Of a stretch of 64,000 nt of DNA, positions 37,850-42,748 are shown piece by piece; within the stretch, counting starts at the first letter, position 1; each line of letters opens with the position of its first letter. The translations under genes and the position numbers were made by a program. The stretch comes from Parapedobacter lycopersici (GTDB lineage Bacteria; Bacteroidota; Bacteroidia; Sphingobacteriales; Sphingobacteriaceae). The notes under the pieces are model-generated. The model worked only from the letters and a program-made list of their open reading frames with translations, did no database searches and was not told the origin of the DNA. The DNA lies in contig NZ_JAMSLW010000002.1 in assembly GCF_024643285.1 (NCBI RefSeq), forward strand, positions 496,001 to 560,000, in the 5' to 3' direction.

Positions 37850-38502
37850 AACACTGCATTGATCAAACGGTCAATTTTGTGCGCCGGCAATTGGCCAATG
37901 CGGAGGCAGGACACGATTGGTGGCATATCCTGCGGGTATGGAATAACGTTAAGTACCTCCTTACCCGGGAACCGGCAGACACACTTGTATGCGAGCTGGC
38001 TGCCCTGCTGCACGATATTGCCGACAGCAAGTTCCATGGTGGCGATGAAACGCTGGGACCCCGGATCGCAGGCGAATACCTAAACGGAATCGGAGTGGAT
38101 GAGAACCGGGTAAAGCATGTGCAGGAGATTATACTGAACATGTCATATAAGGCGAGCCTGGGCCATGTTACCTTTCATTCACCGGAGCTGGCCATCGTAC
38201 AGGATGCTGACCGGCTGGATGCCATCGGCGCCATTGGCATTGCCCGTGCGTTCCATTATGGCGGCTTCAAAAATCGCGAACTATATAACCCCGGTATTCC
38301 TCCCGTCACCCAACAGAACAGGGAGTCGTACAAAAACAGCACCGCCCCGACGTTAAATCATTTCCACGAGAAACTGCTCCTGCTGAAGGACAAAATGAAC
38401 ACCGATACCGCAAGGGAGCTTGCCGCCTCACGGCACGCCTTTATGGAGCAATACCTGGCACAGTTCCATGCAGAATGGGCAGGCGGATTGCCCGCTCAGT
38501 AA
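37846..38502 (+). CDS. HD-domain metal-dependent phosphohydrolase
   Basis: This is a 218-residue HD-superfamily hydrolase of the YedJ/PF01966 type, probably acting on a nucleotide or phosphodiester. The metal ligands are visible as HDWWH (23-27), the HD pair in ALLHDIAD (56-57) and the distal Asp in VQDADRLDAIG (about 128-132). No partner domain is present. The start codon overlaps the upstream methyltransferase stop (ATGA), and the 3' end overlaps the convergent TM2 gene by 7 bases. The substrate is unknown; coupling to an rRNA-modifying enzyme is a hint only. Confidence 0.92.
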   Translation: MKHCIDQTVNFVRRQLANAEAGHDWWHILRVWNNVKYLLTREPADTLVCELAALLHDIADSKFHGGDETLGPRIAGEYLNGIGVDENRVKHVQEIILNMSYKASLGHVTFHSPELAIVQDADRLDAIGAIGIARAFHYGGFKNRELYNPGIPPVTQQNRESYKNSTAPTLNHFHEKLLLLKDKMNTDTARELAASRHAFMEQYLAQFHAEWAGGLPAQ

Positions 38503-38852
38503 CCCGCTACCATTTGGAGGCATTCGCGCGTTGCGCGCTGGTTATACTCATCAGTCATGCTCTTGTGGTTAATCAGGTCGACAATCGTGCCTATCCAGCA
38601 GAAGCCAACGGTCAGGAAATAGATAACACCCATTGCTACCTGGCCAAGTATAAAGCGCTGCACGCCGGCAAATCCCAGAAAACCAAGCAGCGTAAACAGC
38701 AGGATATCCTGTGCGCGTTTTCGTTTGCCAATATAGAGCAGCACGAAATTTTTAAGCTGGTCATCGGTCAGTGAGGCGGTGGCATGCTGGAGGTACAGCA
38801 GTTCATCGGGCGTGATTCCCTCGATGTTCATCAATATGTTACGGTTGCTCAT
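38496..38852 (-). CDS. TM2-domain membrane protein
   Basis: A cytoplasmic N-terminal region (about 1-45) leads to two membrane segments of the TM2 family, about 48-66 and 72-92. The motif LGFLGFAGVQRFILGQVAMG and the later FCWIGTIVDLIN are the TM2 signature (GxxGxHRFYLG-like, here with Gln in place of His before Arg-Phe). The length is 118. Its function is not known. It overlaps the upstream DUF2752 gene by 4 bases, a conserved-looking pair of small membrane proteins. Confidence 0.9.
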   Translation of the reverse strand: MSNRNILMNIEGITPDELLYLQHATASLTDDQLKNFVLLYIGKRKRAQDILLFTLLGFLGFAGVQRFILGQVAMGVIYFLTVGFCWIGTIVDLINHKSMTDEYNQRATRECLQMVAGY

Positions 38853-39151
38853 AGGTATCGTAATTTAGCTGTTATATTCAGTTTTGTCAAACAATAAATT
38901 CGGTGGACAAGCACCAAAAAAGCCGGAATTCCCAGCGGGTGCATTGATACGGATGCTACAAACTCGCCATGCATCAACAGGGTGAGCGAACGGCCTAACC
39001 CACATCCCGGACACCAGTCGACACCCACATTTTCCAATGGACACAGGGTGAAATGATGCATACCGGGATTGGATAAGTAAAGCAGCACCAATGCCCCTAT
39101 CCAACAGCATAATTCAATCGGAAACCTGGAAAATTGGACCTGCTGCATCAT
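38849..39151 (-). CDS. DUF2752 membrane protein
   Basis: This is a 100-residue small membrane protein of the DUF2752 family. The diagnostic segment is TLCPLENVGVDWCPGCGLGR, in which CPGCGLGR is the conserved core between two hydrophobic stretches (about 11-26 and 70-86). The paired Cys suggest a metal site or a disulfide, but no function is established. It is the first gene of a two-gene unit with the TM2 gene (4-base overlap), divergent from the phosphodiester glycosidase gene. Confidence 0.9.
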   Translation of the reverse strand: MMQQVQFSRFPIELCCWIGALVLLYLSNPGMHHFTLCPLENVGVDWCPGCGLGRSLTLLMHGEFVASVSMHPLGIPAFLVLVHRIYCLTKLNITAKLRYL

Positions 39152-39332: not shown

Positions 39333-40229
39333 ATGAAAACAAAAAAACAATACTTTCAACGTTTAACCGGTGCAGCCTATCTCGTAGGCTGTATTTTATG
39401 GTTGGCTCCGCAGTTTATTTTTGCGCAGACCCCGGCAGATTCACTCCGCATCGTCACGACCGTATGGAAGGAAAAAGCCATAGCCCCGGGGGCGGTTTGG
39501 AAACAGGCACATTTTGACAGCCTGTTTGCATCCCAGCAGGAAGTCAACCTGCTGGAGATCGACCTGACAAACCCCGACCGCACCATCGCGTTTGCCGGAT
39601 TGCCCGATGGTGTTGAGCTGACCAGTGTTTTTGCCAAAGAAGCAGGTGCCCTGGGCGCTATCAATGCCACATTTTTTGACGTACAGCACGGGGGTGCCAC
39701 TACATTTGTACGGATCGACGGGAATGTGGTCAACGAAACGAAAATGCTGCTGCCCAATGGCACCAATCATGAACGGGCCAACGGTGCCCTGATTGTCGAC
39801 GGAAAGACAGCCTCCATTGTCCTTGGCGACAATCAGACTGCCGGCTGGGATAAACGCTTGGAAGGAGCCAACGTTATGGTATGCGGCCCGATGCTGTTAC
39901 AGGACGGAACGGCTGTGGCACTGCAGAAAAACGCATTCAACGACAACCGCCACCCCCGGTCAGCCGTGGCACATACTGCCGATAATAAGCTTGTGCTGCT
40001 TACGGTAGACGGGCGGAACGCCAGCGCCCACGGCATGAACCTGCCGGAACTGGCTTTTTTACTGCGCGTAATGGGCATGCAGGATGCGCTCAACCTCGAC
40101 GGAGGTGGGTCAACGACATTGTATTTGAAGGGAGAAACCGAATCGGGGGTGGTAAATTATCCATCAGACAATAAAAAATTCGATCATGAAGGTGAACGTA
40201 AGGTAGCCAATGTCATTCTGGTCTTTTAA
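39333..40229 (+). CDS. Secreted phosphodiester glycosidase (NAGPA/DUF2233 type)
   Basis: This is a predicted periplasmic or secreted enzyme related to the uncovering enzyme NAGPA, which removes N-acetylglucosamine from a sugar-phosphate diester. The signal peptide is MKTKKQYFQRLTGAAYLVGC onward, ending FIFA-QTPADS. The family marks are NRHPRSAVAHT and LDGGGSTTLYL near the C-terminus. The start at 39333 is used because 39321 is a TTG. The length is 298. It is followed by two further secreted phosphodiester-cleaving enzymes in the same direction, suggesting a shared substrate class. Confidence 0.9.
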   Translation: MKTKKQYFQRLTGAAYLVGCILWLAPQFIFAQTPADSLRIVTTVWKEKAIAPGAVWKQAHFDSLFASQQEVNLLEIDLTNPDRTIAFAGLPDGVELTSVFAKEAGALGAINATFFDVQHGGATTFVRIDGNVVNETKMLLPNGTNHERANGALIVDGKTASIVLGDNQTAGWDKRLEGANVMVCGPMLLQDGTAVALQKNAFNDNRHPRSAVAHTADNKLVLLTVDGRNASAHGMNLPELAFLLRVMGMQDALNLDGGGSTTLYLKGETESGVVNYPSDNKKFDHEGERKVANVILVF

Positions 40230-40300
40230 TTCCGGCAAATTAGTTACCTTTAATGAGCCATACATATAATCAATTTATTCATTCGCTGAAAACGAAAACC

Positions 40301-41089
40301 ATGAATTTGATCACCCGCACCCTACTGGCTGTTATTTGCTGCACCATGTCACAAACCACCTTTGCCCAATTTGTCCAAAATGAAGCCATTGCCCACCGCG
40401 GCGCCTGGAAGGTAGACAACCTGCCGCAAAACTCCATCGCTTCGCTGCACCGTGCCATCGAGTTGGGCTGTGCAGGCACTGAATTTGATGTGCACCTTAC
40501 CAAAGACGGTGTACTCGTGGTGAACCACGACAAAGATTTCTACGGGCTGGATATTGCTACCTCAACATATGCCGAATTGCTGGCCAAAAAACATCCGAAC
40601 GGGGAATCGATCCCAACAGCGGAGGCCTACCTGCGTGAAGGCATGAAGCAGCGCAAGACTAAGCTTATCTTTGAACTCAAAACCTCACCCCTGGGGCTGG
40701 ACCGTACGCTTGAAGCGGCCGACCAATCAATAGAACTGGTCAAAAAACTACATGCGGGGGATTGGGTCGAGTACATCCTGTTTGATTATGCGGGTGCAAA
40801 ACGGATCATCGAGCTGGATCCACAGGCTAAGGTTTATTACCTGAATGGCGACGTAACGCCGGCCCAGGCCAAAAAGGATGGCTTTTATGGCCTGGATTAC
40901 CATTTTGACGTGTACAAGAAAAATCCGACCTGGATTCAGGAAGCGCAGCATCTCGGACTCGTGGTTAATGCGTGGACCGTTAACACGGAGGAAGAAATGA
41001 TCCGGCTGCTCGATCAGCAGGTTGAGTACATTACCACCGACCAGCCGGGGCTACTGCTTGACGTCATCCAGCAACATGCTAAAAAATGA
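40301..41089 (+). CDS. Secreted glycerophosphodiester phosphodiesterase
   Basis: This enzyme of the GDPD family cleaves glycerophosphodiesters to an alcohol and glycerol-3-phosphate. The active-site and metal motifs are IAHRGAW, TEFDVHLTKDG with VVNHDKDF, and the later FELKTS. The signal peptide (MNLITRTLLAVICCTMSQTT, then FA-QF) starts at 40301. An earlier ATG at 40253 is rejected because a TACCTTTA promoter-like element (40245-40252) directly precedes it and transcription would begin downstream of it. The length is 262. The next gene overlaps the stop by 4 bases. Confidence 0.94.
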   Translation: MNLITRTLLAVICCTMSQTTFAQFVQNEAIAHRGAWKVDNLPQNSIASLHRAIELGCAGTEFDVHLTKDGVLVVNHDKDFYGLDIATSTYAELLAKKHPNGESIPTAEAYLREGMKQRKTKLIFELKTSPLGLDRTLEAADQSIELVKKLHAGDWVEYILFDYAGAKRIIELDPQAKVYYLNGDVTPAQAKKDGFYGLDYHFDVYKKNPTWIQEAQHLGLVVNAWTVNTEEEMIRLLDQQVEYITTDQPGLLLDVIQQHAKK

Positions 41090-41919
41090 AAAAAACAGCC
41101 GTCACCGCCCTGCTCTTTTTTACCTGCATTGCCTTTGGCATTGCCCAGCAATTCCGTGTAGCCACCTACAATATCCGGTATGATGCCACAGGCGATATCG
41201 GCAACCTTTGGGAAGACCGGGCACCCCATCTTACCGGGCTCATCCGGTTCCATGGTTTCGACATTTTCGGCATTCAGGAGGGGCTTAAGCATCAGGTAGA
41301 GGCAATCAAAGCGGCTCTTCCCGGTTATGCCTATATCGGTGTTGGGCGCGATGATGGCAAGGAACAGGGTGAGTATTCAGCCATATTTTTTGACACAACG
41401 AAATTTGAGGTGGTCAGGCAGGGCACCTTTTGGCTTGCTGAAAATACGGGGACACCCAACAAAGGCTGGGATGCGGCCCTGCCACGTATCTGTACCTGGG
41501 GATTATTCAAGGACCGGCGTACCGGCTTCCGGTTTTTCCTGTTCAACACCCATTTTGACCACGTGGGTACCGAAGCCCGGACGGAAAGTGCTAAACTTAT
41601 CGTAAAAAAAGCCAGTGAACTGGGCAGCGGTACACCGATGATCATCACCGGCGACTTTAATGTGGACCAGCACAGCGACAGTTACCAGTTGCTCCACACT
41701 GGTGGAGTAGTAGAAGATGCATATGAGCTATCGCCCCTGAAATATGCACCTAATGGCACTTTCAATAGTTTTGACATCACCCGTGTGAGTGACAGCCGGA
41801 TCGATCATATTTTTCTTTCTCCTCCGTTTAAGGTGGTCCGCTATGGTATACTGACAGACAGCTATGCGGGCAAGCTGCCCTCTGATCACTTTCCGGTAAT
41901 GGCAGAAATCCGCTATTGA
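41086..41919 (+). CDS. Secreted endonuclease/exonuclease/phosphatase family protein
   Basis: This is a metal-dependent phosphodiester or phosphomonoester hydrolase of the EEP fold. The signal peptide is MKKTAVTALLFFTCIAFGIA-QQ. Family residues are seen in order: RVATYNIRYD, FGIQEGL, FNTHFDHVG, ITGDFNVDQ, RIDHIFLS and SDHFPVMAEI. The length of 277 fits. It is translationally coupled to the GDPD gene (ATGA overlap). Its substrate could be a sugar-phosphate, phospholipid head group or nucleic acid; the neighbours favour a sugar or lipid phosphodiester. Confidence 0.94.
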   Translation: MKKTAVTALLFFTCIAFGIAQQFRVATYNIRYDATGDIGNLWEDRAPHLTGLIRFHGFDIFGIQEGLKHQVEAIKAALPGYAYIGVGRDDGKEQGEYSAIFFDTTKFEVVRQGTFWLAENTGTPNKGWDAALPRICTWGLFKDRRTGFRFFLFNTHFDHVGTEARTESAKLIVKKASELGSGTPMIITGDFNVDQHSDSYQLLHTGGVVEDAYELSPLKYAPNGTFNSFDITRVSDSRIDHIFLSPPFKVVRYGILTDSYAGKLPSDHFPVMAEIRY

Positions 41920-41986: not shown

Positions 41987-42748
41987 ATGAAGAATCGGCT
42001 GAAAGTACTTTCCCTTGCCTCCTCACTCCTCCTGTTTACCAAGTGCGATACACTGAGCCAGATGACATACCCGGACGGTGCTGCCACAACACCATCCGGC
42101 GGCACAACGCAGGGCACGGCCGTTTCTTCCAGTGAAATCGCCGCGGGCATAAAGCAGGCTTTGAGCCAGGGATTAGACAGGAGCATTCAGTCGCTCGCGG
42201 TAAAAGACGGCTTCCTGGGCAATACAGCGGTTAAAATCCTCATGCCCCCGGAGGCACAAAAAGTAGAACGTACCCTACGGGATATTGGGCTGGGGTCGTT
42301 GTGCGACAACCTGATCCAAAGCCTTAACCGCGCAGCAGAAAGCGCCGTAAGCGAAGCGGCACCGGTGTTCGTTTCGGCACTTTCGCAGCTCACCGTCCGC
42401 GATGCAACCAATATCCTGCTCAGCGGGCAGAAGGATGCGGCTACTCAGTTTTTCCAGCGCGCCACCACGGATGAACTGACCAAGCGGTTCAGTCCCATTG
42501 TGGAGCAGGCGCTGGGCAAACACAATGTCGCACAGTACTGGAGCACCGTGATGACCAGCTATAACCAGATTCCCCTTATTAACGATAAGGTGGAAACCGA
42601 TTTGAACAAGTACGTAACCCAGAAAGCCATAGCCGGCCTCTTTCATCAGGTTGCCCAGGAAGAACTTAAAATCCGCAATAACCTCGGCGGTACACGTACC
42701 ACACCATTGCTGAAAAAGGTATTCGGCTACGCCGACAAACAGCAATAA
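41987..42748 (+). CDS. DUF4197 envelope protein
   Basis: This is a 253-residue DUF4197 protein. It has an N-terminal export signal (VLSLASSLLLFTKCD); a Cys at residue 20 suggests a lipoprotein, but Lys at -1 is not a normal lipobox residue. The mature part is alpha-helical, with the family segments EIAAGIKQALSQGLDRSIQS, DATNILLSGQKDAATQFFQ and LFHQVAQEELKIRNN. Its function is unknown. A TACCTTTA promoter-like element lies at 41943-41950. It stands alone between the hydrolase cluster and the stress-protein operon. Confidence 0.9.
   Translation: MKNRLKVLSLASSLLLFTKCDTLSQMTYPDGAATTPSGGTTQGTAVSSSEIAAGIKQALSQGLDRSIQSLAVKDGFLGNTAVKILMPPEAQKVERTLRDIGLGSLCDNLIQSLNRAAESAVSEAAPVFVSALSQLTVRDATNILLSGQKDAATQFFQRATTDELTKRFSPIVEQALGKHNVAQYWSTVMTSYNQIPLINDKVETDLNKYVTQKAIAGLFHQVAQEELKIRNNLGGTRTTPLLKKVFGYADKQQ

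Follow-up and report, generated by a model that had tools for sequence, protein, structure and literature searches.

NAGPA-type enzymes cleave sugar-1-phosphodiester bonds; the animal enzyme uncovers 6-phosphomannose, and the product of human NAGPA is mannose-6-phosphate. For GlpQ, the metal-binding or catalytic residues have been named as H43, R44, E70, D72, H85 and E152, and the enzyme digests the teichoic acid chain as far as the linkage unit and is stopped by glycosylated units (PMC7086022). The same text places the side-chain sugars of teichoic acid at glycerol C2 and describes wall teichoic acid as attached to N-acetylmuramic acid, at its C6, through a glycosidic phosphodiester (PMC7086022). 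Moreover, phosphate depletion of Flavobacterium induces secreted mono- and diesterases of SusCD-type clusters (PMC8115612), a wheat-straw consortium secreted, among other proteins, Sphingobacterium glycerophosphodiester phosphodiesterases (GDPDs) with GH16 (PMC4666044), and a domain survey records calcineurin-like phosphoesterases fused to NAGPA (PMC11488536).

Here, we describe a cluster of Parapedobacter lycopersici in which genes for an NAGPA-like enzyme, a GDPD and a phosphatase of the EEP (endonuclease/exonuclease/phosphatase) family follow one another. The stretch of DNA analysed (64,000 nucleotides, hereafter the window) comes from a 3.6 Mb genome in 22 contigs. The trio is a new combination of known enzyme families, and the case for the combination is strong for GDPD and EEP and moderate for NAGPA; we found no description of it among open-licence papers, in agreement with the preliminary description, whose author knew of no pathway with these three enzymes. 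We lean towards the view that the trio is a secreted phosphoester-stripping module, in which two diesterases feed one phosphomonoesterase. The cluster and its conserved downstream neighbour occupy the following positions:

39333..40229, + strand, NAGPA-like secreted phosphodiester glycosidase (298 aa; PF09992)
40301..41089, + strand, secreted GDPD (262 aa; PF03009)
41086..41919, + strand, secreted EEP-family phosphatase (277 aa; PF03372)
41987..42748, + strand, DUF4197 gene, conserved downstream neighbour, not claimed for the pathway (PF13852, 242 bits)

Three co-directional genes with signal peptides, the last two of them coupled, had been noted before, and this was confirmed by Pfam, by the 4-bp overlap between the GDPD stop and the EEP start (ATGA, 41086-41089) and by inspection of the N-termini by eye, which in all three proteins resemble type I signal peptides ending near A-Q. 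Against Pfam, the NAGPA protein scored 133.7 bits with PF09992 (cut-off 25; residues 105-298), the GDPD 88.0 bits with PF03009 (cut-off 23.6) and the EEP 57.9 bits with Exo_endo_phos, PF03372 (cut-off 24.5); NCBIfam yielded nothing for the NAGPA, matches far under the cut-off for the GDPD and EEP, and a specific name for none of them. The NAGPA and GDPD genes are 71 bp apart if the latter starts at ATG 40301 and 23 bp apart if it starts at the in-frame ATG 40253, which would add 16 residues; we favoured 40301 because the homologue alignments begin there. Scans for sigma-70 promoters and terminators gave none above shuffled sequences, Bacteroidota promoters lying outside the reach of that scan.

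The solved relatives of the NAGPA include 3ohg (DUF2233; E 4.5e-14) and the animal NAGPA 6pki (E 5.3e-11), and its D256-S260 (DGGGS), H207-P208-R209 and D226-G227-R228 are at least 95% identical in 116 rows (rows L088 and L084 left out). The GDPD is related to 7ww4 (E 1.3e-78), which is the GDPD portion of a protein that carries the deposition name beta-1,3(4)-glucanase, and to 3no3 (E 3.2e-58); its H32, R33, E61, D63, H76 and E125, at least 95% identical in 45 rows, match those named for GlpQ, the two sets being paired by motif and not by structural alignment. The EEP resembles 3mpr (E 3.2e-87) and 4c1r (E 4e-87) over nearly the whole domain, and the label of 4c1r, mannosyl-6-phosphatase, is the depositors' own. 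Its N29, E65, H156, D158, H159, D190 and N192 are at least 95% identical in 30 rows, and we take N29, E65, H156, D190 and N192 to be the EEP active-site residues.

The cluster sits among housekeeping genes and not in a PUL. Upstream of it lie genes for SSB, an RlmL-like methyltransferase and an HD protein, and downstream those for DUF4197, Usp, PepT and a nitroreductase, the names SSB, Usp partner, PepT and nitroreductase being assigned partly by eye. TM2 and DUF2752 genes (38496-39151, - strand) separate the HD gene from the cluster and are inverted; this pair is found in most Parapedobacter genomes. In Sphingobacterium, the cluster occupies this block too, but the inverted pair and Usp are missing: HD or RlmL is upstream in 84 of 86 loci, DUF4197 or PepT downstream in 79, and both flanks are present in 77. 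The DUF4197 gene follows the cluster in most loci of the site, including those with GDPD only. Neither SusC nor SusD genes flank the trio in the window or adjoin it in the other loci of the site.

Conservation of this neighbourhood in Sphingobacteriales, a matter raised in the preliminary description, was indeed found: GDPD and EEP stand together at the fixed site in 85 of 87 Sphingobacterium and 8 of 9 Parapedobacter genomes, and NAGPA joins them in 42 of the former (absent in 45) and in 2 of the latter (absent in 7). The Sphingobacterium set comprises 93 genomes, and the site counts cover 87 of them (86 loci plus G399), the others being G389, G392, G406 (no match at 1e-60), G418, G440 and G442. 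By arrangement, 34 of the 87 have NAGPA-GDPD-EEP, 8 GDPD-NAGPA-EEP, 43 GDPD-EEP and 2 GDPD alone. In Parapedobacter, all nine genomes have the GDPD at the site; G003 is without the adjoining EEP, and the upstream NAGPA is present in the window genome (G000) and G007. Among the other seven, G001, G003 and G005 carry a NAGPA of about 50% identity elsewhere, G008 has a weak match only, and G002, G004 and G006 have no NAGPA. The nearest named relative in the set, Parapedobacter tibetensis (L036), is 66% identical in NAGPA, 75% in GDPD and 73% in EEP.

The spacing in the Sphingobacterium clusters is operon-like. With start codons set to the ATG closest to the beginning of the alignment, a choice that may make single values inaccurate, NAGPA and GDPD in the usual order are at most 30 bp apart in 25 of 33 measured clusters, and the GDPD-EEP gap is more variable (at most 30 bp in 39 of 75, maximum 357 bp). 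In the GDPD-NAGPA-EEP loci, the first gap is 6 bp and the second 15-35 bp in all eight, and in Parapedobacter G007 the NAGPA-GDPD gap is 182 bp. The idea of a conserved gene order held for the usual arrangement, but the order changed once, to GDPD-NAGPA-EEP, in 8 of the 42 Sphingobacterium trios; the eight NAGPAs concerned are a single clade, and its sister, row L316, is in the usual first position. Since the genes stayed adjacent, their linkage outlasted the rearrangement.

In the GDPD tree, each genus has a clade of site proteins of its own and off-site GDPDs come between the two, a split which suggests that the site may be old or may have been filled more than once; the site EEPs of the two genera are likewise in two clades. 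The NAGPAs of the trio do not group as a single clade (AU test, p 2e-4 and 8e-7 in two tests), the reason being that NAGPAs from elsewhere branch within them, and a 72-row NAGPA tree divides the site NAGPAs into two parts, each with off-site rows; the long or partial rows L109, L088 and L090 were left out of this tree and of that behind the p value of 8e-7. We do not claim repeated recruitment of NAGPA, as the three label changes are explained no worse by one gain and two departures than by three gains. A single ancient origin followed by losses and departures accounts for the history as well as repeated gains do.

A survey of the class at E<=1e-40 showed both the GDPD and the EEP of these subfamilies in 25 of 296 genomes, adjacent in 5 (2 from the window's own family) and apart in 20; given thousands of genes per genome, chance predicts almost no adjacent pairs, and thus five exceed it. 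Two fusions of these domains were found as well. The Parapedobacter locus L177 (G008) encodes GDPD-EEP in a single frame of 521 aa, from which the EEP signal peptide has been lost, and in L206 (G270, from a different family in the class) a protein of 522 aa with the order EEP-GDPD is encoded inside a SusC-SusD operon; neither contains an inner stop, and both domains are above the Pfam cut-offs in each. The class survey did not list the GDPD half of L206 among its GDPD matches, although this half has a strong PF03009 match. The opposite domain orders argue for two separate fusion events. Many further GDPD-EEP fusions in Sphingobacterium, taken from an open-frame column, were withdrawn, and a GDPD-NAGPA-EEP triple fusion (rows with an open frame of 830) proved at the DNA level to be three separate ORFs that share a frame.

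Fusions of GDPD with GH16 were also encountered: in L203, L204 and L205 (genomes G359, G354 and G370, from two families), SusC, SusD and a GDPD-GH16 gene are followed directly by EEP, an aquaporin (GlpF-like) gene is upstream in L204 and L205, and L190 has another GDPD-GH16 protein. Perhaps L203-L205 represent a locus for glycerophosphate-substituted beta-glucan.

Related GDPDs elsewhere lie beside glycerol-3-phosphate oxidation, FGGY kinase and aquaporin genes (L178-L181, L183 and L187, not all of these genes in each), and four of these loci with GlpD-, GlpK- or GlpF-type genes also contain SusC. In L179 and L180, a HAD phosphatase adjoins the GDPD, its N-terminus in L180 being signal peptide-like; this is the same pairing, a GDPD with a secreted phosphatase.

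The surroundings of NAGPA are more varied. In Maribellus (L064/L065), genes for SusC, SusD, an EEP-fold protein, a 256-aa protein, another EEP-fold protein, a calcineurin-PQQ protein and NAGPA are tightly packed, and L087 has NAGPA in a SusCD operon with EEP-fold and calcineurin-like enzymes; the EEP-fold genes of these loci gave no match to the window EEP at E 1e-5 and belong to a different EEP subfamily. In the Barnesiella-like loci L068 (9938-15417) and L071, NAGPA, a calcineurin-like phosphoesterase, an alkaline phosphatase and a glycerate kinase stand in a row, hinting at a glycerate-containing substrate, and a glycerate kinase is also near the NAGPA of L106. The window genome itself has a second, distant NAGPA of 342 aa (L109:9401-17000, G000:C18), which ends a regulator/SusC/SusD locus; L109-like loci of relatives have two NAGPA genes. 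The ECF-sigma-like and anti-sigma-like names in such NAGPA SusCD operons were given by sequence inspection, not by a scan.

In the module that we propose, the GDPD would convert a glycerophosphoryl diester to glycerol-3-phosphate and an alcohol, the NAGPA, where present, would cut a sugar-1-phosphodiester at C1 of the sugar and leave a phosphomonoester on the other partner, and the EEP would dephosphorylate the monoesters from both diesterases, after which glycerol, sugar and phosphate would be available for uptake. For NAGPA, this would be the other kind of phosphodiester that is common in glycans, a sugar-1-phosphate bound to a hydroxyl. The enzymes would act outside the cytoplasm, in the periplasm or at the surface, and their substrates would come from other organisms: envelope polymers or lipid head groups bearing glycerophosphate or sugar-phosphate. 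The linkage of the genes, their fixed site, the fusions, the conserved motifs and the kinship of the proteins are what we observed, and from these we infer the reactions, their order, location and targets; within the model, the action of EEP on GDPD products is the best supported step. The presence of related GDPDs in glycerol operons, together with the HAD partner, makes a route from the diester via glycerol-3-phosphate to glycerol and phosphate likely. The reactions of NAGPA and EEP may connect as well, since the EEP is closest to 4c1r, labelled a mannosyl-6-phosphatase, and mannose-6-phosphate is an NAGPA product. Given the linkage of the trio and the fusions, the genes probably serve one small pathway for phosphorylated glycans or lipid head groups; NAGPA, being dispensable at the site, need not share its substrate with the GDPD/EEP pair. 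According to the preliminary description, the three enzymes could jointly strip a sugar, free glycerol phosphate and release phosphate from a glycosylated phosphodiester. That the three belong together is upheld by the linkage and the GDPD/EEP fusions, but the chemistry is partly wrong: with the side-chain sugars of teichoic acid attached to glycerol C2, it does not follow for them that NAGPA removes a sugar so that the GDPD can work.

Alternatively, NAGPA could be a passenger with its own job, and only GDPD and EEP would cooperate. About half of the Sphingobacterium and most of the Parapedobacter genomes have no NAGPA at the site, and this, its relatives standing alone or in PULs, and the NAGPA-GDPD gaps in the window and in G007 agree with such a role; however, the linkage outlives the change of order, the gaps in Sphingobacterium are very short, and elsewhere NAGPA pairs with EEP-fold and calcineurin-like enzymes. 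We regard a mere passenger as unlikely. A possible, though rather doubtful, account is plain scavenging of phosphorus and glycerol, drawn from mixed sugar-phosphates and phospholipids that have lost their acyl chains, without one particular polymer as target. Against it, a glycan is suggested by the SusCD operons in which GDPD-GH16 fusions adjoin EEP, and NAGPA is, to our knowledge, not an enzyme of lipid head group use. Scavenging would nevertheless be consistent with the glycerol-operon context and secreted phosphatase partner of related GDPDs, with the position among housekeeping genes outside PULs, and with the precedent of phosphate-depletion-induced mono- and diesterases in Flavobacterium (PMC8115612).

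We give little credence to the trio being a kit for dismantling Gram-positive wall teichoic acid, in which the GDPD would be a GlpQ-like exo-teichoicase on polyglycerolphosphate, the NAGPA would cut the GlcNAc-1-phosphate bond that joins C6 of muramic acid to the linkage unit, and the EEP would dephosphorylate glycerol-3-phosphate and the muramic acid 6-phosphate that remains. The linkage-unit bond is indeed of the type found in NAGPA substrates, and the GDPD retains the equivalents of the residues named for GlpQ. Moreover, in L106:1162-10370 (G070), NAGPA, the exo-muramidase NamZ, SusC, SusD and a GHL10 hydrolase are all encoded in one direction, with NAGPA and NamZ 1 bp apart, and this is possibly a locus for peptidoglycan or teichoic acid utilisation; in L063 and L070, NamZ is close to NAGPA with one gene between. 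However, NamZ queries against 196 loci gave matches in L106, L063, L070 and L088 only and none near the trio itself, and the glycosylated units that block GlpQ are not known to be removed by any member of the trio. Fungal phosphomannan, from which NAGPA would uncap mannose-1-phosphate-6-mannose and EEP would take off the exposed 6-phosphate, seems to us a highly improbable target. It would suit the mannosyl-6-phosphatase label among the best solved EEP relatives and the uncovering of 6-phosphomannose by animal NAGPA, but it leaves the GDPD without a role, and genomes with the trio have fewer GH92 and GH76 genes, not more, which makes such a target unlikely. Among 84 Sphingobacterium genomes (42 trio and 42 pair; the two with GDPD alone and G399 left out), in a comparison confounded by kinship and genome size, the median was 4 GH92 genes with the trio versus 11 with the pair (per Mb, p about 9e-7) and 3 versus 5 GH76 genes (no difference per Mb, p 0.36), and 7 of 42 trio versus 3 of 42 pair genomes had no GH76.

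The phosphoester-stripping module that we favour would join three families, whose annotations are usually separate and vague, in a single testable pathway that follows one chemical principle, namely two ways of opening a phosphodiester and one way of finishing the monoester. The fusions in both orders may guide the annotation of many secreted EEPs of Bacteroidota now called endonuclease/exonuclease/phosphatase. If it is true that NAGPA cuts the linkage units of teichoic acid, soil Bacteroidota would harvest phosphate and glycerol from Gram-positive walls.

Compared with described systems, the locus resembles the PusCD phosphate utilisation clusters of Flavobacterium, likewise clustered mono- and diesterases in Bacteroidota (PMC8115612), but no SusCD or TonB transporter is present at the window site. 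The EEP shares with 4c1r and 3mpr (E about 1e-87) a KGWDA-LPRIC-WG stretch; it lies in no mannan cluster. With the GlpQ-type GDPDs and the GDPD-GH16 type of 7ww4, the window GDPD has in common the GDPD domain and the catalytic residues named for GlpQ, whereas it is without GH16 and is partnered by an EEP phosphatase, either separate or fused. The NAGPA belongs to the same Pfam family as the animal mannose-6-phosphate uncovering enzyme (6pki, 6pkg) and the DUF2233 protein 3ohg, with the DGGGS motif aligned, but unlike animal NAGPA it is a bacterial, sequence-distant protein that is encoded beside a GDPD and a phosphatase.
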